The notes under the pieces are model-generated. The model ran no database searches and was not told where the DNA came from. It was given only the letters and a program-made list of their open reading frames with translations. Position numbers and translations under genes: made by a program. A DNA stretch of 64,000 nt from Aquisphaera giovannonii. Lineage in GTDB: Bacteria > Planctomycetota > Planctomycetia > Isosphaerales > Isosphaeraceae. Numbering within the stretch: position 1 is the first letter of the stretch; each line of letters starts with the position of its first letter. Below, one piece after another: positions 6,178 to 43,405 of this stretch. Where the stretch lies: the NCBI RefSeq assembly GCF_008087625.1, contig NZ_CP042997.1, positions 1,550,001 through 1,614,000 of the forward strand, given 5' to 3'.

Positions 6178-6206
6178 TTGCGATTCTCGCTCGAAGGCTT
6201 TATGCT
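6178..6206 (+). promoter_or_regulatory. promoter of the lipocalin-like gene
   Basis: TTGCGA (6178-6183) and TATGCT (6201-6206) are separated by exactly 17 bp. Transcription would start about 50 bases before the start codon at 6264. Confidence 0.45.
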
Positions 6207-6263
6207 CCGCACCCGGGAGCCGTGATCCACACATCGAACCTATGCTTCTGCGAGGATGCCACC

Positions 6264-6767
6264 ATGCCGATTCTCTCCGGGCGATTCCGCGCGAACGCCC
6301 CGGTACGGGCCCTGGTCGCGGCCGTCCTGATGCTCGAATGCGCGGCGGCCGGGGCCCAGGCTACGAAGAAGGCGCAAGCCTCCGTCAGGAGGGAGTCGCC
6401 CGCCTCGCCGGCGAGCCAGCTCGAGGGGGCGTGGAAGATGGTGAAGTCGCGCAATCCCGCGACCGGCCAGCTCCTCGACATCCCCGGCGAGATCGAGATT
6501 ACGAAGCTGATCACCGGTGGCCGATATGCCTGGATCGCGGCGCGCAATGGCCAGGCCGTCGGCGGCATGGGGGGGACCTGTGCCGTAACGGCCAACGGGT
6601 ACACCGAGACGGTCACCTACGCCCTCGGGCAGAACGACAAGGCCCTCGTCGGGACGTCGCAGAAGTTCACGTGGACCATCGAGGACGGCGTCTGGCACCA
6701 CAAGGGGACGCTCCGCCTCGGGAACCGGACGCAGGAGATCGACGAGTACTGGGAGCGGGTCCGCTAG
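6264..6767 (+). CDS. exported small protein, lipocalin-like
   Basis: A 167-residue protein with an N-terminal signal peptide (hydrophobic residues about 14-30, then AGAQA). The mature part opens with LEGAWKMVKSRNPATG and continues with alternating strands (ITGGRYAWI, GTCAVTANGYTETVTY, KFTWTIEDGVWHHKG), ending EIDEYWERVR. This is the pattern of the small lipocalin-like domains that test for GxW near the N-terminus; ligand and role are unknown. The ATG at 6264 was selected because it starts the signal peptide and lies behind a good promoter. The frame is open upstream, but that part is antisense to the EF-hand gene. Confidence 0.65.
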   Translation: MPILSGRFRANAPVRALVAAVLMLECAAAGAQATKKAQASVRRESPASPASQLEGAWKMVKSRNPATGQLLDIPGEIEITKLITGGRYAWIAARNGQAVGGMGGTCAVTANGYTETVTYALGQNDKALVGTSQKFTWTIEDGVWHHKGTLRLGNRTQEIDEYWERVR

Positions 6768-6808
6768 GGCGGTCGAGGGCGGCCCTCGCGAGGCCCGGGC
6801 GGGCCGGC

Positions 6809-8593: not shown

Positions 8594-8790
8594 CCCGCTC
8601 GGCCCTCGCGAGTCCGTCCGCATTGGCCGCCCCCTCGCCCGCGACGTTGCACGCGAGGTCACCGCCAGGTTCCGTATCCCACCATGATCACACCGGGAGC
8701 CTCCTCCGGCAAGCCGCGTGGCGGCCGGGCGGGGGAGCTGCTGATCTCCTGCGTCATCATCTTCGGCCCACTCGCCCCATCCGCGCCAGG

Positions 8791-16632: not shown

Positions 16633-16675
16633 ACGGGCGGAGGATGGCCGAAGTGGGGGCCCGCGACGGCCGCCG

Positions 16676-21743: not shown

Positions 21744-22421
21744 ATGAGCCCGCAGGCGGAAGTCCGGTCGATCGACGCCCTCAAGGGCCTCCGATCGGCG
21801 CTGGCGATCTACTCCGAGGACACCCTCGCCGCGCTGGGCGCCGTGGAGGCCGAGGTCCGCCGCACGGTCCGCTGGCTCGCCGAGGACCGGCCCCACTTCT
21901 GGCAGGAGCAGATCAAACGCCGCCGCGAGCTCGTCGCCTCGGCCAAGGCGGAAGTCTTCAAGCGGAAGCTCCAGAAGAAGCCCGACTACTCGCCCTCGAT
22001 GAGCGAGCCGATCGAGATGCTCCGCAGGGCCGAGGCCAGCCTGGCCGACGCCGAGCGTCGCCTGACGCTCACGCGGAAATGGCAGTCGCAGTTCAACCAG
22101 GCCGTCCTCGAATACCACGGCGCGACCCAGCGGCTGAAGGACCTGGCCGCCTCGGACGTCCCCCGCGCGATCCAGGCGCTCATCCGGATCGTCGAGGCCC
22201 TGGAGGCCTACCTCCGGGTCGCTCCGCCGCCGGGAGGGGGATCGTCGCCCGGGGCCGCCGCCGGATCTCCGGGAGTCTCCCCGGAGCTCGAGTCGATCGC
22301 CGCCCGCGTCCTCGACGAGGAGCCTCCGCCCGATTCCGGCGACCGGCCGACGAATCCCGCCGAGGGCGCGGACGCCCCGGATCCCGACGAGCACCCGGCC
22401 GAAGCCGAGGGAGGTGATTGA
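21744..22421 (+). CDS. helical protein of unknown function, EssC-like operon
   Basis: A 225-residue protein I cannot assign to a named family. Residues 1-155 are almost entirely predicted helix, with long charged heptad-like runs (WQEQIKRRRELVASAKAEVF; EMLRRAEASLADAERRLTLT), suggesting a coiled-coil hairpin. The C-terminal 70 residues are Pro/Gly/Glu-rich and probably disordered. There is no signal peptide or membrane helix. It is the first gene of an operon: its TGA lies two bases before the next start codon, and a FtsK/EssC-like ATPase gene follows. By position it could be an ATPase adaptor or a secreted helical partner; that is inference only. Confidence 0.7.
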   Translation: MSPQAEVRSIDALKGLRSALAIYSEDTLAALGAVEAEVRRTVRWLAEDRPHFWQEQIKRRRELVASAKAEVFKRKLQKKPDYSPSMSEPIEMLRRAEASLADAERRLTLTRKWQSQFNQAVLEYHGATQRLKDLAASDVPRAIQALIRIVEALEAYLRVAPPPGGGSSPGAAAGSPGVSPELESIAARVLDEEPPPDSGDRPTNPAEGADAPDPDEHPAEAEGGD

Positions 22422-22423
22422 CG

Positions 22424-22663
22424 ATGCCCAATGCGAAGGTCATGGGGGGGGCCGCCCGGGTGAACCAGAGCATCCGCCTCCTGAAGGACGAGTGGCTCGT
22501 CACGGAGGCGACCTGGGGCGACGTCGTCCGCCGGAGGTTCGAGGAGCGATACCTCGCCCCGCTCGGCCCGGCGGCGGACGCGGCGATCCTCGGCATGCAG
22601 AAGATGGCGGAGGTCCTGGACCAGGTCCGCCGCGATTGTTCCGACCGGAGCGAGGCACCGTGA
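22424..22663 (+). CDS. 79-residue WXG100-like helical protein
   Basis: A very small protein predicted to be two helices. The helices run from about residue 8 to 25 (AARVNQSIRLLKDEW) and from 27 to the end, with TWGDVVRRRFEERYLAPL at the turn and a C-terminal VRRD. Size, Trp-Gly at the turn and the Phe/Leu spacing afterwards resemble WXG100 (ESAT-6-like) proteins, although the motif is TWGD, not a clean WxG, so membership is tentative. The ATG at 22424 has a GGAGGT ribosome-binding site eight bases upstream (22410-22415). The stop codon overlaps the GTG of the ATPase gene (GTGA), so production of the two is coupled. A TTG six bases upstream is a less likely start. Confidence 0.7.
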   Translation: MPNAKVMGGAARVNQSIRLLKDEWLVTEATWGDVVRRRFEERYLAPLGPAADAAILGMQKMAEVLDQVRRDCSDRSEAP

Positions 22664-25600
22664 GCACGAGCCCGACCACGTCTCTCCACACCGGCCCGGA
22701 TCCGCGCCCGCTCCCCGGGGAGGGCCCGCACGATCCGGCGGGCGGGGCCGTCGAGCCCGACCTCATCGCGCGCGAGCGGGATGCCCTGCGGCGGCTCCTG
22801 ACGCTCATCGACGAACGGGCACGCGAGGAGGCCCACGCCGAGGAGTCCCGCCGCACCCAGGACGCGAGGGTGGACGCCGAGTACGCGAAGACCCGGCAGG
22901 GGCTCGTCGAGAAGTACGCCACCCTGGACAGGGAGGCCCGCGCCGAGGACGAGGCCCGCCGCGCCGCCATCGTCAAGGCCGCCATGGAGGGGGAGCAGAA
23001 GGCCAAGGCGGACTTCGCCTCGGCCAGCCGCCAGATCGCGAGGGACTTCGACAGGCTCCGGGACACGGCGAAGAGCTCCTACGACCGGGCCGTCCGCGAC
23101 GCCGGCTCGCAGCTCGAGGCCGGCAACCGCCAGGCCGACACGCACCACACCGAGGAGCTCAGGCCGCTCAGCGAGGCGCGGCAGATCTCCGAGAGCTTCC
23201 GCGACCGCCTGGACGCCTTCGCCATCGACTACGCGAAGCTCAAGCTCGACTCCGAGCCGCCCTCGCCGATGCCGGAGAGCTACGAGAAGTTCCCGGAGCC
23301 CGTGAACGAGCTCTTCGACCGCCTGGCCAGGATGGAGCCCCCGCTGAAGCTCCTCGAGGGGCTCCTCATCCCGAAGTCCATCAAGGGTGCGAACGAGGCC
23401 TGGGCCTACCTCGTGCCGCTCCTCGCGGCGGCCGGGCTGGCCGTGGCGATGGGCCTCGACGTCACCGGCGTCATCGGCCTGGCCGTCGCCGGGCTGGCGG
23501 CGGGCGTCGCCCTCAGGATGGCGCTCGTCCGGCTCGCGAAGCAGCAGCTCGAGCGCCTCTACAACCCCCTCCGCCAGTCCCTCGCCGACGCCGACGGCCT
23601 CCTCCAATTCTGCCGGGCCGGGGCGGACGCACGGCATTCCGCCGCTCGCAAGAAGGCGGCCGCCAGGCACGCGGAGGAGCTCGGGCGGGCCAAGGAGGCC
23701 CACGCGGCGAGCATCACGACCGGGGAATCGATCCGCGACGAGAAGCTCCGCGAGATCAACGAGGTCTACGCCCGCGCGAACGTCGAGGTCCAGACCAACC
23801 AGGCGCGGGCCCTGCGCTCGGCGATCGACGCTCACGACGCGAGGATGGCCGAGATCCCGGCCCAGTCCGAGCGCAAGCTCGCCCAGCTCGACGAGGGCTA
23901 CCGGACCCTGAAGGAGCAGGTCCGGGCGAAGCACTCGGGCCGGTGGGACGCCCTGGCCGGGCGCTGGAAGGAGGGCATGGCCGACGTCGCGCGCACGCTC
24001 TCGGCCGTGAACCGCGAGGTGGACGCGATCGGCCCCGCCTGGGACGCCCCGGGCTGGGCGGATCGGGCCCTGCCCTCGGCGATCCCCCCGGTCGTCCGCC
24101 TCGGCTCGGTCCGGGTGGAGCTCGACGCGCTGCCCGGGGGCATCCCCGCGGACCCTCGGCTGATGGCGGACGTCCCGCGGTCCTTCCGCCTCCCCGCCCT
24201 CCGGCCGTTCCCGGCCCACGCCAACCTGCTCATCGAGACGCCCCCCGAGGGCCGCGCCGCGGCCTCGGCCGTGCTCCAGGCGGGCATGTTCCGGCTCCTC
24301 ACGAGCCTGCCGCCGGGCATGGTCCGGTTCACGATCGTCGACCCGATCGGCATCGGCCGCGGCTTCGGCGCGTTCATGCACCTGGCCGACTACGACCCCG
24401 CGCTCGTCACCAACCAGGTCTGGACCGATGCCCGCCAGATCGAGGAGCGGCTGGCCGAGCTCGAGCAGCACATGGAGACGGTCACGCAGAAGTACCTGCG
24501 GAACGAGTACGACACGATCGACGCCTACAACGCCGTGGCCGGCGAGGTCCGCGAGCCGTACCGCATCCTCGTGATCGCCGACTTCCCGAGCAAGTTCGAC
24601 GAGCGGGCCGCGGGCCGGCTGGCCGCGATCGCCTCCGGCGGCACCCCGTGCGGCGTGCTCGTCCTGATGGCCGCGGACACGAGCCGCCCCATGCCGCCGG
24701 GCTTCACCATGGAGCAGGTCCGGCCGCACTGTTCGCTCCTCGCCTGGGACGGCGCGAAGCTCGTCTGGGACGACCCCGACCTTTCCAAATATCCGCTCGA
24801 CCTGGACGCCCCGCCGCCGGGCGAGTTCGCCACCCGGGAGATCCAGAAGGTCGGCGCCGCGGCGAAGGCAGCCAAGCGGGTCGAGGTGCCGTTCGATTAC
24901 ATCGCCCCCGCGGAGGGCTCCTGGTGGACCGGCGACACCCGCGCCGGCATCGACGTGCCGCTGGGCAAGGCCGGGGCGACCAAGAAGCAGGACCTGACGC
25001 TCGGCCAGGGGACGAGCCAGCACGTCCTCGTCGCCGGGCGCACGGGCTCCGGCAAGTCCACGCTGATGCACGCCCTGATCACGAACCTCGCCCTGCGGTT
25101 CAGCCCGGACGAGATCGACCTCTACCTGATCGACTTCAAGAAGGGCGTCGAGTTCAAGGTCTACGCCACCCACGCCCTGCCCCACGCGAGCGTCGTCGCC
25201 ATCGAGTCCGAGCGGGAGTTCGGCCTCAGCGTCCTCCAGCGACTGGACGGCGAGCTCCGCCTCCGCGCCGATCGCTTCCGCGACGCGGGCGTCCAGGACC
25301 TCAACGGCTATCGCAACGCGCCGAACACCCCGCCGATGCCCCGCGTCCTGCTGATCGTGGACGAGTTCCAGGAGTTCTTCGTCGAGGAGGACAAGCTGGC
25401 CCAGGAGGCGGCGCTCCTGCTCGACCGCCTGGTCCGCCAGGGCCGTGCCTTCGGCGTCCACGTCCTGCTCGGCTCGCAATCGCTGGGCGGCGCCTTCACG
25501 CTGGCGCGGAGCACGCTCGGCCAGATGGCCGTCCGGATCGCGCTCCAGTGCAGCGAGGTCGATTCGCTGCTCATCCTGGCGGAGAACAACCTCGCCGCCA

Positions 25601-26679
25601 AGTGGCTCTCACGCCCCGGCGAGGCCATCTACAACGACGCCAACGGCGCCCCCGAGGGCAACCACTTCTTCCAGGTCGTCTGGCTCTCCGACGAGAGGCG
25701 CGAGGACTACCTGAAGAGGCTCCACGCACTGGCCCTGGAGCGCAAGCCCGCGCTCGCCCGCACGCCCCTGGTCTTCGAGGGCGACGCCCCGGCCGACCTG
25801 CCCGCCAACCCCCTGCTCCGGATGCTCCTGGACCAGCCGGCCTGGACGCCCTCCATCCGGTCCGCCCAGGCCTGGCTCGGCGACGCGGTGGCGATCAAGG
25901 ACCCGACCGCGGCCCTCTTTCGACGCCAGGGCGGGAACCACCTCCTCATCGTCGGCCAGAACGACGAGGCCGCCGCGGGCGTGGTCGCGGCCGCGATCCT
26001 GGGCCTCGCCGCGCAGTATCCCCCGGCGACGAACGACAACGCCCGCCTCGGCGCGAAGTTCTACCTCCTAGACGGCACGCCCGAGGACGAGCCCCGCTCG
26101 GGCGTCCTGCCGGGCCTCGTCGCCGGGTTGCCGCACGGCGTGAAGGTCGGCGGCTGGCGCGACGCCGCGGGCTTCGTCGCCGCCGTGGCCGGCGAGATCG
26201 CCCTGCGGCAGAGCCCCGAGGGCGGCGACGGCCCGGAGGTGTTCCTCGTCATCCACGACCTCGCCCGCTTCCGCGACCTCCGCCGCCGCGAGGACGACTT
26301 CGGCTTCGACCGCCGCGACGAGGCTTCGCCGACGGACCACCTCGACATGATCCTGAAGGAAGGCCCCGGCCTGGGCGTCCACCTGATCGCCTGGTGCGAC
26401 ACCGTGAACAACGTGAATCGCAGCTTCTCGCACCAGCAGCTCCGCGAGTTCGAGATGCGCGTCCTCTTCCAGATGAGCCCCACGGACAGCGGCGGCCTGC
26501 TCGATTCGCCCGCCGCCAGCAAGCTGGGCCGGAATCGTGCGTACTTCTCCAGCGAGGAGCAGAACCGCCTGGAGAAGTTCCGGCCCTACGGGCTGCCGCC
26601 GAAGGAATGGGTCCACGCGATGGCCGCCGCCCTGACGAACCGGCCCCCCGCGGCGGCGGGCGACGACTCGAAGGGCTGA
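22660..26679 (+). CDS. EssC/FtsK-SpoIIIE-like membrane ATPase
   Basis: A 1339-residue ATPase. Order of parts: charged coiled coil (about 35-200), two membrane helices (about 248-300), a second coiled coil (about 310-430), then three FtsK-like modules. The first (about 500-700) has no P-loop but keeps a DPIGIGRGF segment. The second is intact: Walker A GRTGSGKST (793-801), Walker B VLLIVDE (896-902) and a LLGSQSLGG sensor-like segment. The third (about 1080-1300) has GQNDEAAA where a Walker A would be. Three serial modules with partial loss of motifs is the architecture of EssC/EccC ATPases of type VII secretion, here without an FHA domain. GTG is chosen as start because it overlaps the previous stop as GTGA. 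The cargo is unknown. Confidence 0.85.
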   Translation: MSTSPTTSLHTGPDPRPLPGEGPHDPAGGAVEPDLIARERDALRRLLTLIDERAREEAHAEESRRTQDARVDAEYAKTRQGLVEKYATLDREARAEDEARRAAIVKAAMEGEQKAKADFASASRQIARDFDRLRDTAKSSYDRAVRDAGSQLEAGNRQADTHHTEELRPLSEARQISESFRDRLDAFAIDYAKLKLDSEPPSPMPESYEKFPEPVNELFDRLARMEPPLKLLEGLLIPKSIKGANEAWAYLVPLLAAAGLAVAMGLDVTGVIGLAVAGLAAGVALRMALVRLAKQQLERLYNPLRQSLADADGLLQFCRAGADARHSAARKKAAARHAEELGRAKEAHAASITTGESIRDEKLREINEVYARANVEVQTNQARALRSAIDAHDARMAEIPAQSERKLAQLDEGYRTLKEQVRAKHSGRWDALAGRWKEGMADVARTLSAVNREVDAIGPAWDAPGWADRALPSAIPPVVRLGSVRVELDALPGGIPADPRLMADVPRSFRLPALRPFPAHANLLIETPPEGRAAASAVLQAGMFRLLTSLPPGMVRFTIVDPIGIGRGFGAFMHLADYDPALVTNQVWTDARQIEERLAELEQHMETVTQKYLRNEYDTIDAYNAVAGEVREPYRILVIADFPSKFDERAAGRLAAIASGGTPCGVLVLMAADTSRPMPPGFTMEQVRPHCSLLAWDGAKLVWDDPDLSKYPLDLDAPPPGEFATREIQKVGAAAKAAKRVEVPFDYIAPAEGSWWTGDTRAGIDVPLGKAGATKKQDLTLGQGTSQHVLVAGRTGSGKSTLMHALITNLALRFSPDEIDLYLIDFKKGVEFKVYATHALPHASVVAIESEREFGLSVLQRLDGELRLRADRFRDAGVQDLNGYRNAPNTPPMPRVLLIVDEFQEFFVEEDKLAQEAALLLDRLVRQGRAFGVHVLLGSQSLGGAFTLARSTLGQMAVRIALQCSEVDSLLILAENNLAAKWLSRPGEAIYNDANGAPEGNHFFQVVWLSDERREDYLKRLHALALERKPALARTPLVFEGDAPADLPANPLLRMLLDQPAWTPSIRSAQAWLGDAVAIKDPTAALFRRQGGNHLLIVGQNDEAAAGVVAAAILGLAAQYPPATNDNARLGAKFYLLDGTPEDEPRSGVLPGLVAGLPHGVKVGGWRDAAGFVAAVAGEIALRQSPEGGDGPEVFLVIHDLARFRDLRRREDDFGFDRRDEASPTDHLDMILKEGPGLGVHLIAWCDTVNNVNRSFSHQQLREFEMRVLFQMSPTDSGGLLDSPAASKLGRNRAYFSSEEQNRLEKFRPYGLPPKEWVHAMAAALTNRPPAAAGDDSKG

Positions 26680-26740
26680 GGTCGCGTGCGATCGCGTCCG
26701 CGAGGGGCCGTCGACGTCCGACACTCGAGAGAACGAGACG

Positions 26741-29700
26741 ATGACTCCGGACCAGCCGCCCTCGGATCCCGTCCGCGGCCTCGTGGCCGATTCCTTCCGG
26801 CCCCTCGACGAGCTGGGGGCCGGGCTCGCGGATCGCGTGGTCCGCTACGTGTGCGACGACCTCGACCCGGGGGTCCTCGATGTCCTCTCCCGGACGCCCG
26901 AGGCCGGCGTTAGGATCGGCCTCGGGTGCCTCTATCCGCAGTTCATGATCGGCCGGCAATCGCCCTCGGCTCGCCTGCCCTGGGACGAGATCCTGGACCG
27001 GGCGGAGGGCATGCCCCCGGGGGTGCTCCTGCGACTGGCCAGGGCGCTGCACGCCGGGGCCCAGACGGCCATCCCGGCCGGGGCGATGGGCGGACTGGTG
27101 GCGACGCCCGCGATGCTCTCGGTCTCCACGTACACGTCCGTGCCGGGATGGGCCGAGACGCTCGTCCGGCTCGCGACGCGCCGGGTGGACGGCCTGGCAC
27201 CGGGACGAGAGCCCGGCGACCGGCTCCCGGCCATCCTCGTCGAACGGCTGCTCGAGCTCGATGGCCATTCACCGGACCTGATCTATCGGGATGTGTTCCC
27301 GCGAGCCGGCTCCGTCGCCTCTCTCGCGGCCGGCTCGCTCTTCCGCACGCTCGCCGGTTTTCGCGATCGGCTGGCGGAGCGGCCGGAGATCGTCTCGGCC
27401 GCCCTGACGCAAGCCGAGGCCCCGATGAGATCCCTCTCGCTTTCCATCTTCAAGATGCTCAGGCTGCCCGTCGCCCACTTCGTCGAGCCCCTCGCCGCCC
27501 TCGCCGTTGGATCCTCCGCCAATCTCCGGGGCGAGGCCGCCTCCCTGGTCCGGGAGGCCGGCCCGCTCGCGCTGCCGCCGCTGAAGGCCCTGGCCGAGTC
27601 GGGATCTCCGGCGGCCCGCGGGCATGCCCTGCGGCTCATCGATCGGCTCGGCTTGCCGGAGGGCCGCGAGTACCTGCGATCGCGCCTGGGCGTCGAGAAG
27701 ACGGCCGCGGTGCGGGAGGTCCTCGAGGGGCTCGTCGGCGACCGCGACGGCAGGGCGGCAGTCGACGGGGAGCCGGGGTCCGCCCCGGGGCTCCCGCCCG
27801 TCGACCCGTTCGTCGGGGTCGGGCTGGGGGGGGATGCCCTGGCGGCCGTGACGGCGTGGCTGGAGGAGAGATTCCCGCTCAGCCATCAGGGCTGGCTCGA
27901 ACGCTTGCTCTCTCCCCGCCCGTGGTCCGAGGGGCCGGAGTACTCGAGCGAGATCCCGCCGGCCGACCAGGACGCGGCGCTCGGGCGACTTCTCCGGCGC
28001 CCGGAGCTCACGACCTTGCACATGGTGCGGCTCCTGAGACTGGCCCGGATCCTGCAACCGCATCCCAGCCCCGATTTCGCGTCCCGCAACCTGGCCTCGC
28101 CCCCCGACCGGCTCGAGGCGCTCCTCTCGGCCTATCGGGAGGCCCACTCGCCCCGCGTCGGGTTCCGCGAGCTGGCCGCGGCCTTCTCCGCGTCGGCGAT
28201 GGACCCGGAGCTCCTCCCGAACCTCTGGTACGGGCACAGGGAGGGCCAGCTGTTCCAGTGGGAGGCCGAGGCAATCTGGCCCTTCTTCGCCGACCGCTTC
28301 GGCTGGCTGGCGGAGGAGCTCGACCAGGGGCCCAGGGGCGACGAATTCGAGCGATACGTCCTGGGCATGGACTGGCGGGCGCTGCGGGCCCTGGCCATCC
28401 TCGACGCCTTCCCGGCGGTGCCCGCGAGCCTCGTCCCCAGGGTCTGGCGGATCGCCGAGGGGGGTAAGCAGTCGCTCAGGCCGGCGGCGAGGAGGCTGCT
28501 GGAGAAGCTCCCCGAGGCCCGCGGCCGCCTGCTCGAGTCGCTCGCCGACGGGAAGGCGGATCGGCGGGCGGCCGCCGCCGAATGGCTCGGCCAGTGGAAG
28601 CCGCCCGGGGCGGCGGAGGCCCTCCGCCAGGCGATGGAGGCCGAGAAGGTCGCGGCCGTGAGGACCGCCATCGGCCGGGCCCTGGAATTGCTGGGGGAGT
28701 CGGCGAAGCCGACCGGCCAGGCGAATCCCGCCGACCTGATCGATCGGCTCCGGAAGGAGGCGGCCCGCGGCCTCAAGATGGGGATCCCGGAGAAGCTGTC
28801 CTGGTTCCCGTTCGACCGGCTCCCCGAGGTCCGCTGGCGGCACGACGGGGCGCCGGTCGAGCGGCCCGTCCGCGATTGGCTCGTCGTCTCGGCCTGGAAG
28901 GCGAAGTCGGCCGAGCCGTCGGAGGACCTGCGGGGCCATGCCTCCCTGCTCCACCCGGAGGATTTCCGCGGGCTGGGCCGATCCGCCTTCGAGGCCTGGC
29001 TCGCGGAGGACCTCAAGCCGCAATCGGAGCAACTCAGGCGGGAACAGCTGGCCTCCTTCCTCCACCTCTTCGGCGTGAGCACGGTCGAGGAACTCCTGCG
29101 GGCGCAGCCGGACATGGCGCAGGCGATCGAGCGGCAGAAGGACGCGCCCGGGATGGGCAACGTGGCCGACAAGGGGCTCCTCGCCGTCGCGGCGGTCGCG
29201 GGACCTCCGGAGGCCGTCGGCCCGATCCGCGATTACCTCAACAAGTGGTACGGATATCGGGCCTGGCAATGCCGGGCGCTCGTGACGGTCCTGGCGTGGA
29301 TCGACGGCCCGGAGGCCGTCGCGCTGCTGCTGGACGTCGCCCGGCGGTTCCGGACCGCGACGATCCGCAAGGAGGCGGAGGTCCAGGCCCGCAAGCTCGC
29401 GGATCGCCGGCGGATGACGCTCGCCGAGCTGGCCGACGTGTCGATCCCCGACGCCGGCCTCGATGCGTCCGGCCGGATGGTGCTCGACTTCGGCCCCCGG
29501 CGCTTCGTCGCCCGGCTCGACGACGATGCCGAGGTGGTCCTCGAAGACGAGGAGGGCAAGGCCCTCAAGGCCCTGCCCTCGCCGGCGAAGTCGGACGACG
29601 CCGAGAATGCCGCCGCGGCGAAGGGCCGGCTGGCCGCGCTCAAGAAGGAGGTGAAGGCGGTCCGCAAGCGGGTCGTGGACCGGTTCCAGGAGGCGCTCTG

Positions 29701-30403
29701 CACCCAGCGGTCGTGGACGTTCGCAGCCTGGCAGGCGTCCCTGCTCCGCCACCCGATCGCCGGCCGTCTGTGCCGACGCGTCGTCTGGGCCGCGACGTCG
29801 GGCGGCGGCCCTCCCGCCACGTTCCGCCCGCTCGAGGACGGCTCGCTGACCGACCTCGACGACAACCCGGTCGAGCTTCTCGCCGACGCCGAGGTGCGCC
29901 TCGCCCATCGGCTCACCATCGGCGACGAGGCCACGGACCGGTGGGCGGCGCACCTCTCGGATTACGAGGTTGCCCCGCTGCTCCCCCAGGCCTTCGGCCC
30001 GGCATCCCGGCTGCCCGAGCCGCTCCGGAGGAAGACGGCCTGGCCGTTCCGGGCCGAGACGCCCGTCGCGCTGGCCATCTTCGGCCGGCGGGCCCGCGGC
30101 CTGGGGTATGACCCGGGTGCCTTCCGCCTCGAGGACGGCGGGGATCGCTTCCTCCGCCACTTCCCCTCGGCCTCCCTGTGCGCGGCGATCGAGCTGGACG
30201 ACCTCGACGAGGCGGACAGGGTCGCCGGCCTGACGCTGTCGTTCCTCCGGGCCGCCGAGGGGCAAGACGCCCGGGCAGGCAGGCGGATCGCCCTCGAGGA
30301 GGTGCCCGAAGTCCTCCTCAGCGAATGCGTCGCCGACCTCTCCCGGATCGCCGGCGCGGCCTCTCCACGGATGGCCGAGGAACCGGTCGCGGAGCCCTCC
30401 TGA
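26741..30403 (+). CDS. DUF4132 protein, copy 1 (divergent)
   Basis: A 1220-residue protein. The first 800 residues are helical and repeat-like, with segments typical of HEAT-type scaffolds (RRAAAAEWLGQWKPPGAAEALRQ is one). The last 400 carry DUF4132: LADRRRMTLAELADVSIPD, LLRHPIAGRLCRRVVWA, FRPLEDGSLTD and AAHLSDYEVAPLLPQ. E. coli YehI is the best-known DUF4132 protein and its function is not established. No signal peptide or membrane segment is seen. It starts 61 bp after the ATPase gene and precedes two closer paralogues. It differs from them in its longer N-terminus and weaker C-terminal motif, so it is probably the oldest copy or a different subfamily. Confidence 0.8.
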   Translation: MTPDQPPSDPVRGLVADSFRPLDELGAGLADRVVRYVCDDLDPGVLDVLSRTPEAGVRIGLGCLYPQFMIGRQSPSARLPWDEILDRAEGMPPGVLLRLARALHAGAQTAIPAGAMGGLVATPAMLSVSTYTSVPGWAETLVRLATRRVDGLAPGREPGDRLPAILVERLLELDGHSPDLIYRDVFPRAGSVASLAAGSLFRTLAGFRDRLAERPEIVSAALTQAEAPMRSLSLSIFKMLRLPVAHFVEPLAALAVGSSANLRGEAASLVREAGPLALPPLKALAESGSPAARGHALRLIDRLGLPEGREYLRSRLGVEKTAAVREVLEGLVGDRDGRAAVDGEPGSAPGLPPVDPFVGVGLGGDALAAVTAWLEERFPLSHQGWLERLLSPRPWSEGPEYSSEIPPADQDAALGRLLRRPELTTLHMVRLLRLARILQPHPSPDFASRNLASPPDRLEALLSAYREAHSPRVGFRELAAAFSASAMDPELLPNLWYGHREGQLFQWEAEAIWPFFADRFGWLAEELDQGPRGDEFERYVLGMDWRALRALAILDAFPAVPASLVPRVWRIAEGGKQSLRPAARRLLEKLPEARGRLLESLADGKADRRAAAAEWLGQWKPPGAAEALRQAMEAEKVAAVRTAIGRALELLGESAKPTGQANPADLIDRLRKEAARGLKMGIPEKLSWFPFDRLPEVRWRHDGAPVERPVRDWLVVSAWKAKSAEPSEDLRGHASLLHPEDFRGLGRSAFEAWLAEDLKPQSEQLRREQLASFLHLFGVSTVEELLRAQPDMAQAIERQKDAPGMGNVADKGLLAVAAVAGPPEAVGPIRDYLNKWYGYRAWQCRALVTVLAWIDGPEAVALLLDVARRFRTATIRKEAEVQARKLADRRRMTLAELADVSIPDAGLDASGRMVLDFGPRRFVARLDDDAEVVLEDEEGKALKALPSPAKSDDAENAAAAKGRLAALKKEVKAVRKRVVDRFQEALCTQRSWTFAAWQASLLRHPIAGRLCRRVVWAATSGGGPPATFRPLEDGSLTDLDDNPVELLADAEVRLAHRLTIGDEATDRWAAHLSDYEVAPLLPQAFGPASRLPEPLRRKTAWPFRAETPVALAIFGRRARGLGYDPGAFRLEDGGDRFLRHFPSASLCAAIELDDLDEADRVAGLTLSFLRAAEGQDARAGRRIALEEVPEVLLSECVADLSRIAGAASPRMAEEPVAEPS

Positions 30404-30437
30404 TCTTCGGTCAACCATGCCTCGCGAGCACCGGACC

Positions 30438-33437: not shown

Positions 33438-33477
33438 ATCGGCCGTGGGCCGGATGCATCACCATCGAGTCGCCATC

Positions 33478-36468: not shown

Positions 36469-36500
36469 GGCTCCCCGGCTCGCTGGCCCCGGAGGACGCG

Positions 36501-38645
36501 TCAAGGCGGCGTCGAGCGGGCGTCCGCCGCGGCGGGGCGGATCGCCTCGGCCGCGAGGTTGACGGCCTCCTGCGACTGGCAGAGGCGCGCGAGGTGGAAG
36601 GCGATCAGCACCTGACGGGAGACCGGGGCCGGGTCGGACAGCTCGCCGCGTCGGAGGGATTCGAGGACCTCGACGACCCGGCCCACGGCCTCGCCGAGCG
36701 TGCCCAGACCCAGGGCCTCCAGGCCGGCGGCGGCGGCCCGTAGTGGGACCACCCGGCCGAACGCCGCGGGGCCGCCCTCGGCAAGGCCCAGGAGGTCGTC
36801 CGCGACGCGTCCGAGGAGCCGGCCGAGGTTCGTCGCCGTCGGCTCCGCCGGCTCCTCGCCCCCCGCCTCGGCGTCGTCACCTTCGATATCCTCCTCGGCG
36901 TCCCGATCGTCCGCGCGACGAGTCGGAGACGGCCCGCCGGCCCGGACCTCCCCGTCGAGCGACAGGTGGATCGGCCCTTTCGCCGTGTGCAGCGTGATGG
37001 GCAGGACGCAGAGCCTGCCCGCCTCGAGGACGAGGATGCCCAGGACCGACGTCGTGCCGGAGGGGTCGTGCCGCTCCAGGGTCGCGACCGCCTTCCCCGC
37101 GATCTCCTCGTGGCGGAGCACCAGGGGCAGGCGCCGGCCCTCCGCATCCAGGACGTCCCGGACGAGCTCCTGACGGACCTCGTCGAAGGCCGCCGGCCCC
37201 CACAACGCCGGCGCGATCAGGACGATGGCGTCCTGCTCCGTTCGGTCCTTGAACCCCCCGCCGAACAGGGAGGACGCCCGGCTCGCCAGGTCGGCCCAGC
37301 TCGCAATCCGCGCCGGGACCTCGTCGGGCACGGACGGGCCGAGGGTCATCGCCTGGGTCGATGGCCGCCCGGAGAGCCGGCCCTGGCGGTTGCGGTACGC
37401 GCCGGAGAGGCGGACCGCCTTCCTCGCCGCCTCGGCCGGGCAGCCGAGACCGCTCCACGGGCCGTCGGCCCGGAAGCGTGCGGCCGGGTCGAAGCCCGGG
37501 GTCGCGACCGGCCGCGAGTCGGACCATGTCGCCCAGTTCCGGGCGGCCCGGTCCCAGAAGTAGATCGTGAGGCCCCAGAAGCCGCTCCTCGTCCTCCAGA
37601 CGCGAGCGCCCAGCCCGACGAGCTCGACGTCGCCGACGGGCTCGTAGGCCGTGCGGTGCTGGCCGACGAGGTGCGGCGAGGGCCGCTTCAGCAGGCCCAG
37701 GCGGAGCATCTCGACGCGGGCCGCCTGGCCGAGCACGCGGGCGGCGTCGGCCTGGGCGTCGCGGGCGAGGTAGAGCTCGACCTCGGAGGAGAGGGCGTGG
37801 AGCAGCCGCTGGAGCCGAGGCAGGTCCACCCCCTGGGCCGAGATGGCGAGCGTCCGCAGCCGCTCCGCCGTCCCCCGCGAGAGCCGCGAGAGCCCGGTGG
37901 AGACCATCTGGGCCAGCACGTCCCCGACCGACGCGAGCACCTCGTCCCGCGTCCTCGGCGCGTCCGACGAGGCGGAGAGCGCCGACTCGGCGAACGCCTC
38001 CGGCGGGCGGGCCCCGCGGTCGATCTGGAACGCCAGGACGGCGGCCACGCGGTGCTCGCAGGCCCCCGCCGCGTGGCACGAGCAGAGCATGCCGTCGAGC
38101 CCGCCGCCGGGCATCCACCGGCAGGTGACGTTCCGCGTGGGCAGGCGCGCGACGAGGCCGTAGCCCGGCTCGAGATCCACCGGCAGGCCCTGCGCGAGCA
38201 TCTTCTTGACCTTGTTCAACAGCGGCCGGCCGGACCACTTGCCGATCGCCTCGTCGTCCAGGGCGAGGACCTCGGCCGAGGCGGGGAGCCCGGAGGCCTC
38301 CGAAACCGCTTCGACTTCCTCCGTCGTCGCGACGGCCGGATCACCCTCGCTCGCCATTTCCTTGACGAAGATCAGGGCCGCCAGGATGTGCCGGCAGATC
38401 CCGCTCGCCGGGCACGAGCAGCGCGACTGGGCCGGCGGGAGCGCGAGCTCGGCCAAGCCGTCGGCCACCTCGACGCGGAGCCGATCGGGCTTATCGCCGG
38501 CGCCCAGCAGCCTCGGCGAGATCGTCTCCAGGTCCTTGCGGGCCCGGCGGACGAGCCCCTTGTTCGCGAGCGCGGCGAGGGCGTCGTCGTCGAAGGCCGC
38601 CAGGCCCCGGCGGAACGTCGCTACGAGAGGATCCGCGCCATCCAT
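36501..38645 (-). CDS. SWIM zinc-finger protein (YehQ-like)
   Basis: A 714-residue protein with two SWIM-type zinc fingers, CxCx5CxH: C76, C78, C84, H86 and C188, C190, C196, H198. SWIM domains bind DNA or protein. The remainder is helical with no recognised enzyme motif and a short acidic stretch before the last 130 residues. It is the last gene of the four-gene MoxR set and corresponds in position to E. coli yehQ. The ATG at 38645 lies inside the end of the VWA gene (25-base overlap), which suggests translational coupling. Upstream in-frame ATGs would lie antisense within that gene and were rejected. Confidence 0.85.
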   Translation of the reverse strand: MDGADPLVATFRRGLAAFDDDALAALANKGLVRRARKDLETISPRLLGAGDKPDRLRVEVADGLAELALPPAQSRCSCPASGICRHILAALIFVKEMASEGDPAVATTEEVEAVSEASGLPASAEVLALDDEAIGKWSGRPLLNKVKKMLAQGLPVDLEPGYGLVARLPTRNVTCRWMPGGGLDGMLCSCHAAGACEHRVAAVLAFQIDRGARPPEAFAESALSASSDAPRTRDEVLASVGDVLAQMVSTGLSRLSRGTAERLRTLAISAQGVDLPRLQRLLHALSSEVELYLARDAQADAARVLGQAARVEMLRLGLLKRPSPHLVGQHRTAYEPVGDVELVGLGARVWRTRSGFWGLTIYFWDRAARNWATWSDSRPVATPGFDPAARFRADGPWSGLGCPAEAARKAVRLSGAYRNRQGRLSGRPSTQAMTLGPSVPDEVPARIASWADLASRASSLFGGGFKDRTEQDAIVLIAPALWGPAAFDEVRQELVRDVLDAEGRRLPLVLRHEEIAGKAVATLERHDPSGTTSVLGILVLEAGRLCVLPITLHTAKGPIHLSLDGEVRAGGPSPTRRADDRDAEEDIEGDDAEAGGEEPAEPTATNLGRLLGRVADDLLGLAEGGPAAFGRVVPLRAAAAGLEALGLGTLGEAVGRVVEVLESLRRGELSDPAPVSRQVLIAFHLARLCQSQEAVNLAAEAIRPAAADARSTPP

Positions 38646-39874
38646 TCGGCGAGCCTCCTCGGCGTGAGCGCCGCGACCTCCGCCCCGGCGGCCACGCACC
38701 GCTCGGCCATGTTGCGGTCGTACACCGGATTGGCCTCGGCGTCGAGCGCCGCTAGCCCGAGGACCCGCGCCCCGGCCTCGCGGAGCCGCTTCACCGAGGC
38801 CGGCAGCAGGTGCCCGGCCACCCCCTCGCAGAAGTCGGTGACCAGGACGACGATCGTCCGCGAGGGCGTCCGGACGAGTCCCTCGCAGTATCCCATCGCG
38901 CCGGCGATGTTCGTCCCGCCGCCGAGCTGCACGCTCATGAGGACCTCGGTCGGGTCGTCGGCGTGCTCGGACAGGTCCACCACGGCCGTGTCGAAGGCGA
39001 CCAGGCTCACGCGGACGGCCGGCAGGGCCTTGAAGATGCCAGCCATGATGGCGGAGTGGATTACGCTGTCCATCATCGAGCCGCTGCAGTCGACGGCCAT
39101 GATGATGTGCCACGGCATGTGACGCTCGACCCTCGACGAGAAGAGGAGCGACTCCAGGACGATCCGCTTCTCCTGGCGGTCGTAGTTCTTGAGGTTGGCG
39201 CGGATCGTCCGGTGCCAGTCCAGGTTGCGGGCCACCTTCAGGGGGCTGCGACGCTGGCGGTTGAGCTTGCCCCAGAGGACCGGGCGGACCTCCTGGGTGA
39301 GCTTCCTCTTGAGGTCCTCGACGACCTGGCGAACGAGCGCCCGGGCGGCCCGGAGGACATTCGGCTCCATCAGGTGGCGGAACGACATGACCGCCTTGAG
39401 GAGCTCGTAGCTGGGCTCCATCTTGCCGAGGGCCTCGGCGTCGGTGACGAGCTCGGTCATGCCGTACCGCTCGAGCGCGTGCTTCTCCAGGACCTCGACC
39501 GTCTCCCGGGGGAAGAGCTCGCGGACGTCCTTCAGCCAGTCGGGGATGGCCAGGACGCTCGCCTCGTCCCCGCCGGTCGGGCTGAACCCGCGGATGCCCC
39601 GGCGCCCGTACTCGCGGCCGTAGAGGTAGTCGAGCGCCCGGTCCATGCGCCCGTAGCGCCCGCCGCGGCCCTCTCGCCCGCCGCCCCCGCCTGCCCCCGG
39701 CTTCCCGGATCCCGGACCGGACGACCCGGGGACCGCCGCCCCCTCGTCGCCGAAGCCGGAGCCCAGGCTCCGCTCCGAGAACTTGCCGAGGACCAGCCGC
39801 CAGCGCTGCCGGGCCAGCAGGTCGTCCGCCGCCGGGTCGCGTCCCGGCTCGGTCGATTCCGCGGGATCAGGCAC
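38621..39874 (-). CDS. VWA-domain protein (CoxE/YehP-like)
   Basis: A 417-residue protein with a C-terminal von Willebrand A domain. The MIDAS metal site is visible: DCSGS (262-266), the threonine in GGGTNIAGAM and aspartate in LVTDF. The N-terminal 75 residues are Gly/Arg-rich; the middle is helical and resembles the region that contacts MoxR-type ATPases in VWA partners such as ViaA and CoxE. The GTG at 39874 is chosen over ATG because it follows a strong GGAGGAGG ribosome-binding site within the end of the upstream gene and gives the normal N-terminus. It overlaps the DUF5682 stop by eight bases. Confidence 0.87.
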   Translation of the reverse strand: MPDPAESTEPGRDPAADDLLARQRWRLVLGKFSERSLGSGFGDEGAAVPGSSGPGSGKPGAGGGGGREGRGGRYGRMDRALDYLYGREYGRRGIRGFSPTGGDEASVLAIPDWLKDVRELFPRETVEVLEKHALERYGMTELVTDAEALGKMEPSYELLKAVMSFRHLMEPNVLRAARALVRQVVEDLKRKLTQEVRPVLWGKLNRQRRSPLKVARNLDWHRTIRANLKNYDRQEKRIVLESLLFSSRVERHMPWHIIMAVDCSGSMMDSVIHSAIMAGIFKALPAVRVSLVAFDTAVVDLSEHADDPTEVLMSVQLGGGTNIAGAMGYCEGLVRTPSRTIVVLVTDFCEGVAGHLLPASVKRLREAGARVLGLAALDAEANPVYDRNMAERCVAAGAEVAALTPRRLAEWMARILS

Positions 39875-42269
39875 CGAGCACCTCCTCCAGGCCGTCCTCG
39901 CGGAGGACATCCAGGACCAGCCGGTTGACGGCCACCCCGCGCAGGAGGTCGGCCTCGCCGAAGCCGTCCGGGCCGGAGGCCGACAGCGAGCCGGCTGAGC
40001 CCGCCACCCCGACGACCCGCTGCGCGACCTGATCGCACTCGCGCGGGGTGAGGTCCGAGAAGGCCAGACGCAGCTCGGGCAGCGCCGCGACGAAACGGTC
40101 CTCGTCCCAGGAGCGGATGACCTCGTGCAGCTGATCGAGCACTTCCGGCACGAGCCAGAGCACGCTCCGGGCCGAGCCGAGCAGGCCGCGGAGGAAGGCC
40201 GCCCCCTCGTGCCCCTCCCCCTTCACGCTCTGGAGGTGGCCGCGGAGCTCGCGGACGAGCTCCTCCGGCGCGATCTCGCCGGCACCGAAGAGCAGTCCGG
40301 CCGCGGCGCCGTGGAGGACGCTCCGGCAGGCCGGGTCTCCCATCAGGGCTCGGAGCCGGCCATTCCGGAGCGATCGCCGGGGCTCGTCGTCCCCCAGGGC
40401 GAGCGCGGCCTGCGGCAGGGCGTTGAGGGCGTCGAGGACCTCCTTCTCCTCGGCCTCGCCGGTGCCGGCCAGCTCGGGGATCAGGTAACAGGCCCGCGAA
40501 TCGGCCGCGTCGGCCAGGGCGGTGACGCCCTCCAGGTGGTGGGCCTCGAGCGGCTCGCGCGAGACGTGGAGGACGAGGAGCTGCTCCAACGCCTTGACGA
40601 TCGACACGAACTGGCCGTCCTCCGCGACGAGCCGCGAGGTCCGCTCCAGGAGCCGGGGCGTGTCCTGGTGTAGGCCCATCCGGCAGGCCTCCAGCAGGAG
40701 GTTCGCCGCGCGGTCGGCCCGCCGGCCCTGGCCGTTCGCCTCGGCCTCGGCGAACTGCTCCATCAGGAGTGCGGCGGACGCCTCCTCGAGCGTCGAGCCG
40801 TACAGCGAGCGCTCGATGAGCGTGGACTCGACCGCCGGCGTCCATCGGTATTTCCAGACCTCGCGGATCCGCTCGAGGTGCTCGCCGGTGACGTAGTCGG
40901 GCCCGGAGACCCACTCGGCGAACGGCACGGTGAGGAACCGGAGGCGATGGAAGAGCCGGCTCGTCTGGCGGGCGCGATCGCCCCGGTACAGGTCGAGGGC
41001 GACCTCGCGGGCCTCGACTCGGTCGAGATCGACCTTGAGGCGAGCGGCCGTCCGCCGGAAGTCCTCGACGAGCGGCGGCACGCCCGCGTCCGGCGGGACC
41101 TGGCCGACGCGGTCGCCGGCCAGCAGCTTCCGCAGCATCGCCAGGATCGGCAGGCCCTCGACGTCGTCCGCCCCCTTCACGAAGACCGAGCGGATGCCGT
41201 CGGACAGGTCCTCGCGCGAGGGGGCCGCGTGCCCGCGGAGCATGGCGAGCCGCCTCACCTGCTCCAGGGCCGCGATCTCGTCGGCGATCGAGACCGGCTG
41301 CCGGCGCTTCCTCGCCTCGCGGGCCAGCTCGACGACCAGGGCCGTGGCCGGCCGCTTCTCCCAGGCCCGCTGGTAGAACTCCGGCGCGGGCATGCCGCTG
41401 GCGTAGCCGTTGAGGCGGTCGAGCTGCTCGAAGCCGTACCGCATCAGGGCGACGAGCGCATCCTTATCGTCCACCTTCACCCGCGGCGGCATCTCCGGCC
41501 GGGTCGTCGGCAGGGCCACGGTGTGGAAGCCGCCGGTTACGACGACGACCCGGCCCGGCTGGTCGGCGATCGCCGCGGCCATGGCCCGCTCGCGGCGGAG
41601 CGTGCCGTCGGCCTCCAGGCCCTCCGGGGTCGAGTCCAGCCTGGCGAGGGCGCAGTACGCCAGGACGTCGCGGAAGAAGGTCGGGGTGTCCTTCGCCTCC
41701 GGCTCGATCTCGTAGAGGTGGTCCCAGAGGTCGTCCGGGTCGCGGGCGCCGACCCGCCGGCCCGCCTCGCGGAGGACGTCGCTGTGGGAGAACGGCCGCT
41801 CCTCCTGAAGGCTGGTCGCGCGCCCCGCGCCCTCCGTCCGCCCGGCCTCGACCATCTCCGGGTACGTCAGGTCGATGAACCGGGCCTCGACGCCCAGCTC
41901 CGCCGCCGCCCGGATCGCGGCCAGCTCCGGGGAGTAGTCGCAGAGCGGATAGTAGGCGGCGTGGCGGACGGGCTGGGCCTTCGGGGCCGGGCCTTCGGGC
42001 CCCGCCGGGGCGGCCTCCCGCCGGACATAAGTCGTGTAGATCGCCACCGGCATCCGCGTCTCGGGATGCGTCAGGAGGTGGATCAGGCGGCTGGCGTCGC
42101 GCGGGCCCTCGATCAGCACCGCATCCGGCCGGACCTCGCGGATCAGCCGACCGACGTGGAAGGCGCACGCGGGGCTGTGGTGCCGGACCGGCGCGTAGAC
42201 GACCCTCGCGGAGGGGTCGATCTCCGGGATCAGGGGAGGCTCTTGCGCGCCTCGAGCATCTCCGTCCAC
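39867..42269 (-). CDS. DUF5682 protein (YehM-like)
   Basis: An 800-residue protein of the DUF5682 family. Signature pieces are YAPVRHHSPACAFHV near the N-terminus, AVLIEGPRDASRL, AAYYPLCDYSPELAAIRAA and VVVVTGGFHTVALP. The N-terminal third resembles a TraB/EreA-like alpha/beta fold with conserved His and Glu, but no catalytic function is established. The rest is helical. The GTG at 42267-42269 is supported by an AGGAGGGAGG ribosome-binding site just upstream. The gene overlaps the 3' end of the MoxR gene by 40 bases and the VWA gene by eight. The same MoxR > DUF5682 > VWA > SWIM order is known for E. coli yehL-M-P-Q. Confidence 0.83.
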   Translation of the reverse strand: MDGDARGAQEPPLIPEIDPSARVVYAPVRHHSPACAFHVGRLIREVRPDAVLIEGPRDASRLIHLLTHPETRMPVAIYTTYVRREAAPAGPEGPAPKAQPVRHAAYYPLCDYSPELAAIRAAAELGVEARFIDLTYPEMVEAGRTEGAGRATSLQEERPFSHSDVLREAGRRVGARDPDDLWDHLYEIEPEAKDTPTFFRDVLAYCALARLDSTPEGLEADGTLRRERAMAAAIADQPGRVVVVTGGFHTVALPTTRPEMPPRVKVDDKDALVALMRYGFEQLDRLNGYASGMPAPEFYQRAWEKRPATALVVELAREARKRRQPVSIADEIAALEQVRRLAMLRGHAAPSREDLSDGIRSVFVKGADDVEGLPILAMLRKLLAGDRVGQVPPDAGVPPLVEDFRRTAARLKVDLDRVEAREVALDLYRGDRARQTSRLFHRLRFLTVPFAEWVSGPDYVTGEHLERIREVWKYRWTPAVESTLIERSLYGSTLEEASAALLMEQFAEAEANGQGRRADRAANLLLEACRMGLHQDTPRLLERTSRLVAEDGQFVSIVKALEQLLVLHVSREPLEAHHLEGVTALADAADSRACYLIPELAGTGEAEEKEVLDALNALPQAALALGDDEPRRSLRNGRLRALMGDPACRSVLHGAAAGLLFGAGEIAPEELVRELRGHLQSVKGEGHEGAAFLRGLLGSARSVLWLVPEVLDQLHEVIRSWDEDRFVAALPELRLAFSDLTPRECDQVAQRVVGVAGSAGSLSASGPDGFGEADLLRGVAVNRLVLDVLREDGLEEVLGA

Positions 42270-43405
42270 GGCCCTCCCTCCTTCTGACTGCGCGCCTTGA
42301 CGACGACGTCGAAGTAGTGCTTCAGCTTCTTGAGGTCGTCCGGGTTGTCCTTGAGGACGGCCCCGGCCAGGTGGCGGACCACGTGCCTGGGCCCGAGGCG
42401 GCCGCCGTCGAAGTAGAAGGCGTCGAGGCCCGCCGCCATCGCCACGGAGACGGCCTCCGCCGTGGACATGACCGTGCTCGGCCGCTCGAGCTGGATCCCC
42501 TCACGCGAGACCCCCTCCCGCAGCTCCTGGAAGACCGAGACGAGGAGCTCCACGACCTGCGGGGGGACCTGGACCGGGGCCGAGACCTCCTTCAGGAGCC
42601 GGTCGCACTCCCGGCCGACGAGCTCGATCTCCTGCCTCAGCTCGCGGATCGGGTGGACCGTCTCGAAGTTGAACCGCCGCTTGAGGGCGCTCGACATCTC
42701 GTTGACGCCCCGGTCGCGGGTGTTGGCCGTGCCGATCACGTTGAAGCCCGGCTTCGCGTGCAGGACGCGGTCGGGGCCGTGCAGCTCGGGCACGATCATC
42801 ACCTTCTCCGAGAGGATGGACACGAGCGTGTCCTGGATCTCGGGCGGGCACCGGGTGATCTCCTCGAACCGGACGAGCGTCCCCTCCTTCATCGCCACGT
42901 ACAGGGGCGAGGGGACCATCGCACGGAGGGACGGGCCCTCGGCCAGCAGGAGGGCGTAATTCCATGAGTACTTGATGTGATCCTCGGTCGTGCCCGCCGT
43001 CCCCTGGATCGCGTTGATCGAGGAGCCCGAGATCGCCGCGGCGAGGAGCTCGGAGAGCATCGACTTGGCCGTGCCAGGCTCGCCGACCAGCATCAGCCCG
43101 CGATTGCTGCTCAGGCTGACGATCGCGCGCTCGACCAGGATGTCGTCGCCGAAGAACTTGCGGCGGACCGCGGGCCGGTCCGAGCCGCAGAGGAAGGCCC
43201 GCACGGCGCGGGGGGAGAGCCGCCAGCCCGGCGGACGGGGGTCGCGGTCGGCCTCGGCGAGCGCCTTCAGCTCGGCCTCGAAGACCGCCTCGGCGGGGGG
43301 CTTGAGCATCGGCCGGCCCTGCCCGGGCCCGCCCGCAGCCACGCCGTCCGGGGGAGGGATCGTCGCCGCATCCGCCGCCGCCGCCTCGCGTTGCTTCTTG
43401 GCCAT
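42230..43405 (-). CDS. MoxR-family AAA+ ATPase (YehL-like)
   Basis: A 391-residue AAA+ ATPase. Walker A is GEPGTAKS (108-115). The Walker B position reads LVRFEEIT (177-184), with E181/E182 in place of the usual Asp-Glu pair. Sensor 1 lies in NVIGTANTRDRG (about 222-233), followed by ALKRRFNFE with the arginine-finger region. MoxR ATPases act as chaperones with VWA-domain partners, and here the VWA gene is two genes downstream in an overlapping cluster. It is the first gene of the minus-strand set and diverges from gcvT. The YehL subfamily call rests on gene order and the DUF5682 partner. Confidence 0.87.
   Translation of the reverse strand: MAKKQREAAAADAATIPPPDGVAAGGPGQGRPMLKPPAEAVFEAELKALAEADRDPRPPGWRLSPRAVRAFLCGSDRPAVRRKFFGDDILVERAIVSLSSNRGLMLVGEPGTAKSMLSELLAAAISGSSINAIQGTAGTTEDHIKYSWNYALLLAEGPSLRAMVPSPLYVAMKEGTLVRFEEITRCPPEIQDTLVSILSEKVMIVPELHGPDRVLHAKPGFNVIGTANTRDRGVNEMSSALKRRFNFETVHPIRELRQEIELVGRECDRLLKEVSAPVQVPPQVVELLVSVFQELREGVSREGIQLERPSTVMSTAEAVSVAMAAGLDAFYFDGGRLGPRHVVRHLAGAVLKDNPDDLKKLKHYFDVVVKARSQKEGGPWTEMLEARKSLP

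Follow-up and report, generated by a model that had tools for sequence, protein, structure and literature searches.

We found that ten adjoining genes of Aquisphaera giovannonii, which a sequence-only reading of the DNA had joined into one composite locus, probably form two independent modules that lie side by side, the second being a self-contained chaperone-type machine of the MoxR-VWA/DUF5682 kind. The window, that is, the whole stretch of 64,000 nucleotides that was analysed (G000:C1:1550001-1614000), belongs to a genome of 10.5 Mb in 3 contigs. According to codon-usage gene calls, all ten genes at 21744-43405 are real coding frames, and they are present where the sequence-only reading had placed them. 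The ten proteins were assigned to families with Pfam, and additionally with NCBIfam and PADLOC models; Pfam bore out the families that had been proposed. The coordinates also agreed with the spacing of 32 bp between the converging stops (36468 and 36501) and with the overlaps of the minus-strand genes (38621-38645, 39867-39874, and 42230-42269). Part 1 spans 21744-26679 and part 2 spans 26741-43405; a gap of 61 bp separates the ATPase gene from the first DUF4132 gene on the same strand. The features are as follows.

21744..22421 (start may be 21690), plus strand: part 1, helical protein of 243 aa, family c2; a coding frame
22424..22663, plus strand: part 1, 79-residue protein, family c1; homologues clustered in the mapped loci
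22660..26679, plus strand: part 1, EccC/EssC-type FtsK-fold ATPase; Pfam FtsK_SpoIIIE 112.5 bits, NCBIfam, solved EccC, alignment
26741..30403, plus strand: part 2, DUF4132 protein a, HEAT repeats and DUF4132; Pfam
30438..33437 (start may be 30417), plus strand: part 2, DUF4132 protein b; Pfam
33478..36468 (start may be 33385 or 33445), plus strand: part 2, DUF4132 protein c; Pfam, model m8478e66b6dcb
36501..38645, minus strand: part 2, SWIM zinc-finger protein, YehQ-like; Pfam SWIM 24.6 bits, E. coli YehQ 1e-9
38621..39874, minus strand: part 2, CoxE-type VWA protein, YehP-like; Pfam VWA_CoxE 166.6, E. coli YehP 9e-102
39867..42269, minus strand: part 2, DUF5682 protein, YehM-like; Pfam DUF5682 387.4, model, structural alignment, profile comparison
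42230..43405, minus strand: part 2, MoxR AAA+ ATPase, YehL-like; Pfam AAA_5 128.1, alignment, E. coli YehL 8e-94
43617..44723, plus strand: gcvT, a landmark outside both parts; Pfam, follows the ATPase in the sister genus

No Pfam match was obtained for the 243-aa helical protein or the 79-aa protein. The three DUF4132 proteins scored 122-142 bits each, and HEAT repeats were recognized by Pfam in all of them. Neighbouring genes encode PSD/PSCyt and DUF1552 domains (Pfam), which are typical of Planctomycetota. Two protein kinase genes lie upstream of the region (window 8791-11481 and 16676-19003), and a coding frame of 559 aa at window 57849-59528 had no Pfam match at 1e-5.

The sequence-only reading had given the E. 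coli order correctly: K-12 carries yehI (encoding a DUF4132 protein), yehK, yehL, yehM, yehP, and yehQ. The window has the arrangement of a YehI-LMPQ module, with genes for MoxR, DUF5682, CoxE-type VWA, and SWIM proteins in order and DUF4132 genes nearby, and neither yehK nor a WGR-only gene was detected between its DUF4132 and SWIM genes. The distribution of this module was investigated by scanning named genomes with an alignment of the VWA family, and the best 80 of 384 confirmed candidates were taken. Profile searches of these 80 loci detected DUF5682 in 76, SWIM in 75, and MoxR and DUF4132 in 62 each. In the 49 loci whose flanks of 10 kb were complete to the left and right, DUF5682 and SWIM were each present in 48, DUF4132 in 47, and MoxR in 46 (DUF4132 was absent from L126 and L155, SWIM from L159, and MoxR from L126, L173, and L190). 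The claim that DUF4132 belongs with MoxR, DUF5682, VWA, and SWIM is borne out by the 47 of 49, a figure that leans to close kin of the window's VWA protein because it was drawn from the best 80 of the 384. Judged by their titles, these 80 loci were mostly from Clostridia, and Cyanobacteria, Bacteroidales, Spirochaetes, Anaerolineales, Actinobacteria, Proteobacteria, Polyangiaceae, Thermoanaerobaculia, and Planctomycetota were also represented. The module is widespread across many phyla and self-contained.

Of the 45 genomes of the host's family, 18 had a DUF4132 match and 21 a DUF5682 match. DUF4132 is not obligatory there, because it lay within 12 kb of no more than 8 of the 23 strong DUF5682 loci (>300 bits), and only 11 of 29 DUF4132 matches had a strong DUF5682 within the same distance. 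MoxR adjoined DUF5682 in all 14 DUF5682 loci mapped within the family, and VWA was present in 13 of them, the fourteenth being cut by a contig end. Two variants were recognized. In the first, SWIM and HEAT proteins occur without DUF4132 (L106 by Pfam; L104, L108, and L117 have these clusters too). The second (L107 by Pfam, and similarly L109 and L110) combines a DUF4132-type protein of 308-318 aa, a protein of 1684-1694 aa, and a DUF5682-VWA fusion. In L107 (9052-14106), L109, and L110, this very large protein lies between the small DUF4132 gene and MoxR and has no significant Pfam domain. In L111, the DUF4132 protein encoded at 6203-9496 carries a WGR domain, and a DNA-ligase-like gene (16287-17303) comes right after the SWIM gene. 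A scan of 79 immediate neighbours of at most 98 (short, long, and cut ones were dropped), made without a control set, gave as its top families a PADLOC mads_3-type ATPase (6 of 79) and a Pfam family with 4 of 79; no further constant partner of part 2 appeared, the top recurrent family occurring in 6 of 56 loci. A forward-strand palindromic-pattern scan for SOS/LexA boxes before part 2 yielded no consistent site.

Among the part 2 proteins, DUF4132 proteins b and c are 60% identical. The model of protein c (pLDDT 78.1, pTM 0.52) consists of a helical solenoid and, starting near residue 680, an alpha/beta C-terminal domain, and its structural matches were HEAT/ARM solenoids only. The MoxR protein keeps its P-loop (GEPGTxKS in the alignment), and the bpMoxR model matched below its cut-off (21.9 vs 27 bits). 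In the VWA protein, DxSGSM, T321, and D347 were invariant in the 7 aligned sequences, so the metal-site residues are kept. For one Deinococcus DUF4132 gene, strong induction is described when DdrO, the repressor of the damage response, is depleted (PMC8533742), which hints at a stress role.

The N-terminal domain of the DUF5682 protein likely has the TIKI/TraB/ChaN fold, because a profile comparison, structural alignments with Z of 8-10, and conserved motifs all point to it. In the profile comparison, residues 1-310 matched 13 TraB/GumN proteins of Planctomycetota with a probability of 92.3% (5.5e-7, 225 columns) and with the motifs in register, whereas 14 control pairs were all below 1%; the profile of Ere (EreA) reached only 33%. 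The predicted model (mean pLDDT 88.3) shows the domain, with the parallel beta-sheet core typical of the superfamily, at about residues 16-260, followed by a helical solenoid. The top three VIA-align matches were Tetrahymena chains, named 'TraB family protein' in the PDB (Z 10.2, 9.8, and 9.8; 189-209 residues aligned; model residues 2-258), and ChaN was fifth (Z 8.3, 156 residues, model residues 16-260), with solenoid rows of Z about 8 interspersed among the matches. A Foldseek search with the whole model gave nothing below 0.001 (best 7w5z_E, 0.031), and searching the PDB sequences with a profile of DUF5682 returned two weak matches only, a designed fibre (0.003) and a ribosomal protein (0.19), which were set aside. 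In an alignment of 41 DUF5682 sequences, E54, R226, E227, M230, G246, and H249 were invariant and R29-H30-H31-S32-P33 was kept in at least 90%; the putative catalytic His/Glu positions aligned with the TraB motifs. TIKI enzymes are described as using conserved His and Glu, and the members include peptidases as well as non-enzymes (PMC6254334). By its fold and conserved residues, the domain may be a hydrolase, perhaps a protease. No paper assigning YehM or DUF5682 to the TIKI proteins was found in the open-licence literature.

Considering these components, we propose that the MoxR AAA+ ring and its CoxE-type VWA co-chaperone would remodel or gate a complex built on the DUF4132 solenoids. The DUF4132, SWIM, and DUF5682 proteins would be physically associated in this complex; the SWIM protein would probably provide a contact to nucleic acid or protein, and the DUF5682 protein may be the output enzyme, acting as a hydrolase, perhaps a protease, through its TIKI/TraB-fold domain. 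Such remodelling is proposed because of the analogy with MoxR-VWA chaperones and with ternary systems. MoxR-VWA pairs are described as chaperones that mature enzyme complexes (PMC3893208), and in the ternary systems MoxR-vWA was proposed to restructure a third partner, these systems being read as conflict systems (PMC7159879). On this basis, yehI-LMPQ could tentatively be regarded as a general AAA+-gated protease machine, in which a TIKI-fold peptidase (YehM/DUF5682), docked on solenoids of DUF4132 proteins, would be under the control of MoxR-VWA. An AAA+-gated TIKI peptidase would represent a MoxR-vWA class with no description in the open-licence literature searched.

Two other functions of part 2 have to be considered. 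It is conceivable, with a limited chance, that part 2 is a maturation chaperone like CoxD-CoxE or RavA-ViaA, which would insert or check a cofactor or assemble a complex, and that the TIKI-like domain is a non-enzyme with a ligand-binding role, comparable to that of ChaN for heme. The VWA protein is indeed CoxE-type, MoxR proteins are reported to mature enzyme complexes (PMC3893208), and ChaN was among the structural matches of DUF5682. Nevertheless, the putative active-site residues E54 and H249 were invariant in the 41 sequences, and no metal or redox enzyme was recurrent beside the module in the neighbour scans. Rather unlikely, in our estimate, is a conflict or anti-phage system that would form a further MoxR-vWA class, with DUF5682 as a toxic effector kept inactive until its release by MoxR-VWA. 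Published MoxR-vWA ternary systems were interpreted in this manner (PMC7159879), the module is patchy in the family (DUF5682 in 21 of 45 genomes), its variants exchange third partners, and a few neighbours match defence models, such as the mads_3-type ATPase (6 of 79, without a control set). However, MoxR, VWA, DUF5682, SWIM, and DUF4132 had no PADLOC match at 0.01, and the neighbours were diverse, the best Pfam family accounting for 4 of 79 and the best recurrent family for 6 of 56 loci.

The ATPase of part 1 is related to a different group of machines. Against solved structures, it matched EccC (4NH0) at 2.7e-35, EccC5 at 8.9e-26, YukB at 1.4e-18, and FtsK at 3.6e-10. The sequence-only reading had called it EssC-like, which holds for its nearest kin, the solved EccC, but not for membership: the NCBIfam EccC/EssC models gave 115.5 bits, and the cut-off is 509. 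Since it falls so far under these cut-offs, the ATPase is, as judged by its scores, a kin and not a member of EccC/EssC. Hydrophobic segments lie at residues 247-293, and in the middle P-loop domain Walker A TGSGKSTL and DEFQEFF were kept in at least 90% of 40 aligned homologues. The ATPase profile matched 45 of 45 genomes of the family and, at a threshold of 1e-20, 24 genomes in a sample of 199 from the phylum. ATPases of the window type (at least 54% identity) were present in 26 of the 45 family genomes; ATPases of the other type, nearly all of them with 43-49% identity, include the host's second copy (7475494-7478829). A quick tree built from 39 proteins placed the 20 rows of the window type on one side of a branch (SH-aLRT 100), and the other-type ATPases formed no single group.

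The conserved operon order is c3 - c2 - c1 - ATPase. Among the 41 mapped ATPase loci, c2 homologues clustered in 30, beside c1 and the ATPase, and c1 homologues clustered in 33. The c3 protein is a WXG100 protein of 90 residues; two sequences scored 41.4 and 38.5 bits against a cut-off of 27.3, and a third was just under it (26.8 bits). The c3 profile matched 10 of 12 other-type loci within the family, 4 of 8 loci from other families, and none of the 21 window-type loci, although some mapped loci stop at contig edges. A whole-genome search found a single WXG100 match in the host, adjoining the second ATPase; at this locus (L084, G000:C1:7467200-7487100), an EccC-type ATPase with c3 (WXG100), c2, and c1 makes up a planctomycete type VII-like operon. 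Because c3 is absent at the window-type loci and the sole WXG100 gene of the genome lies beside the second ATPase, part 1 is, in terms of gene content, a paralogue or descendant of a planctomycete WXG100/EccC-type operon that has lost the WXG100 gene or dispensed with it. The idea that the 79-aa protein is itself a diverged WXG100 protein was abandoned: its W..D..FE motifs were suggestive, and the profile comparison with c3 gave a probability of only 14.5%. EssB/YukC (PF10140) had no match in the host genome, the B. subtilis control being positive, and a search with PF05108 (EccB) had no match in the host genome and none in the control genomes either. Two YukD-like (ubiquitin-fold) matches were located at G000:C1:1065623-1065853 and G000:C1:3662523-3662735, far from both ATPases.

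By its anatomy, part 1 would be a membrane-anchored, ATP-driven motor; it probably serves protein export, or may be a by-product of such a system. That the ATPase instead moves DNA or serves defence, with no protein secretion, is unlikely. PADLOC matches to SspH (1.7e-26) and mads_8 (1.3e-22) in its P-loop domain, together with the FtsK match (3.6e-10), could be taken that way, but the EccC match was much stronger than the FtsK match (2.7e-35 vs 3.6e-10), and the sister operon includes a WXG100 gene. WXG100 proteins were described as nearly restricted to Actinobacteria and Firmicutes, with few in Chloroflexi (PMC3935865), and a WXG100 protein with an FtsK/SpoIIIE protein has been published from certain Gram-negative species, its function unconfirmed (PMC10765036).

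The independence of the two parts was evident from both directions. DUF4132, MoxR, DUF5682, VWA, and SWIM genes lay beside the ATPase in 2 of the 41 mapped loci, namely the window and its congener G199 (L064). Conversely, profiles of the ATPase, c1, c2, and WXG100 had no match in the part 2 loci taken as the best 80 of 384 confirmed VWA candidates. The sister genus indicates where the two parts were joined. In genus g173 (L070, L071, L073, L074, and L075), the order is MutS-like, c2, c1, ATPase, gcvT, and gcvH (in L075 the c2 frame was uncalled, but the c2 profile matches there), and a sixth genome of this genus, G230, has the same ATPase-gcvT arrangement by coordinates. The gap between ATPase and gcvT is about 0.1-0.4 kb in this genus except in G227 (L075), where an additional frame was called and the gap measures about 1.2 kb; in the window and G199, gcvT is placed after MoxR. 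Therefore, the block of about 16.7 kb between ATPase and gcvT is limited to the window's genus, which is the sister of g173 within the window-type ATPases (support 98 in the 39-protein tree). Insertion of part 2 in the window's genus is more likely than its loss in g173, because part 2 is patchy in the family. In the third congener, G200, the sole ATPase is of the other type (46% identity), and no DUF4132 or DUF5682 match was found in this 92% complete genome.

The natural cut thus lies at 26.7 kb and not at the strand change. Independent occurrence in related genomes, which the sequence-only reading had named as evidence against its association, was observed for the ATPase part and not along the strand boundary that it had drawn, since part 2 spans both strands. 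Of the co-occurrence expected from a neighbourhood survey, that of DUF4132 and DUF5682 with MoxR, VWA, and SWIM was found, and the ATPase was absent from these loci. At the genome level, and with no correction for genome size or kinship, window-type ATPases co-occurred more often than expected with DUF4132 (15 of 26 vs 3 of 19 genomes, p = 0.006) and with DUF5682 (16 of 26 vs 5 of 19, p = 0.034). Read-through transcription from the ATPase into DUF4132 is possible in the window's genus because of the short same-strand gap. A single composite system, in which the EccC-type ATPase would act together with DUF4132 scaffolds remodelled by MoxR-VWA, is very improbable and was rejected on the neighbourhood evidence: the same-strand spacing of 61 bp to the first DUF4132 gene, the preservation of the arrangement in G199, and the genome-level co-occurrence (15 of 26 vs 3 of 19) are outweighed by adjacency in 2 of 41 mapped loci from one genus, by the ATPase profile in 0 of the best 80 of 384 part 2 loci, and by gcvT after the ATPase in the sister genus.

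Based on the reading of two independent modules, the adjacency of a type VII-like ATPase and a yeh-type module would be a chance neighbourhood, and the survey sets the widespread, self-contained yehI-LMPQ module apart from the adjoining planctomycete relative of type VII ATPases. No functional paper on yehI-yehQ or on the DUF4132-DUF5682 module was found in the open-licence literature, and the active site predicted in YehM/DUF5682 offers a handle on these E. coli genes.

Compared with known systems, part 2 has the same five families as E. coli yehI-K-L-M-P-Q and the same order of MoxR, DUF5682, VWA, and SWIM; however, its DUF4132 gene is tripled, on the opposite strand, and placed after the SWIM gene. 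Part 1 resembles type VII (ESX/Wss) secretion in the kinship of its ATPase and in the WXG100 gene of the sister operon, but its own locus has no WXG100 gene, the genome has no EssB match, and the ATPase stays under the EccC/EssC cut-offs. With members of the TIKI/TraB/PrgY/ChaN/Ere superfamily, the N-terminal domain of DUF5682 likely shares the fold, and it has their order of motifs (His after strand 1, Glu after strand 2, the RExxM helix, and GGxH); in contrast to them, it forms one chain with a long helical solenoid, and its gene stands together with those for MoxR and VWA. The MoxR-vWA ternary systems, described with VMAP, iSTAND, FtsH, and beta-propeller partners (PMC7159879), have the same core of MoxR and VWA with variable further partners. 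None of VMAP, iSTAND, FtsH, and beta-propeller-VWA turned up when the ten proteins were compared with Pfam, and SWIM, DUF5682, DUF4132, YehL, and WGR have 0 occurrences in the main text of that paper. The third components of part 2 are instead DUF5682, SWIM, and DUF4132.
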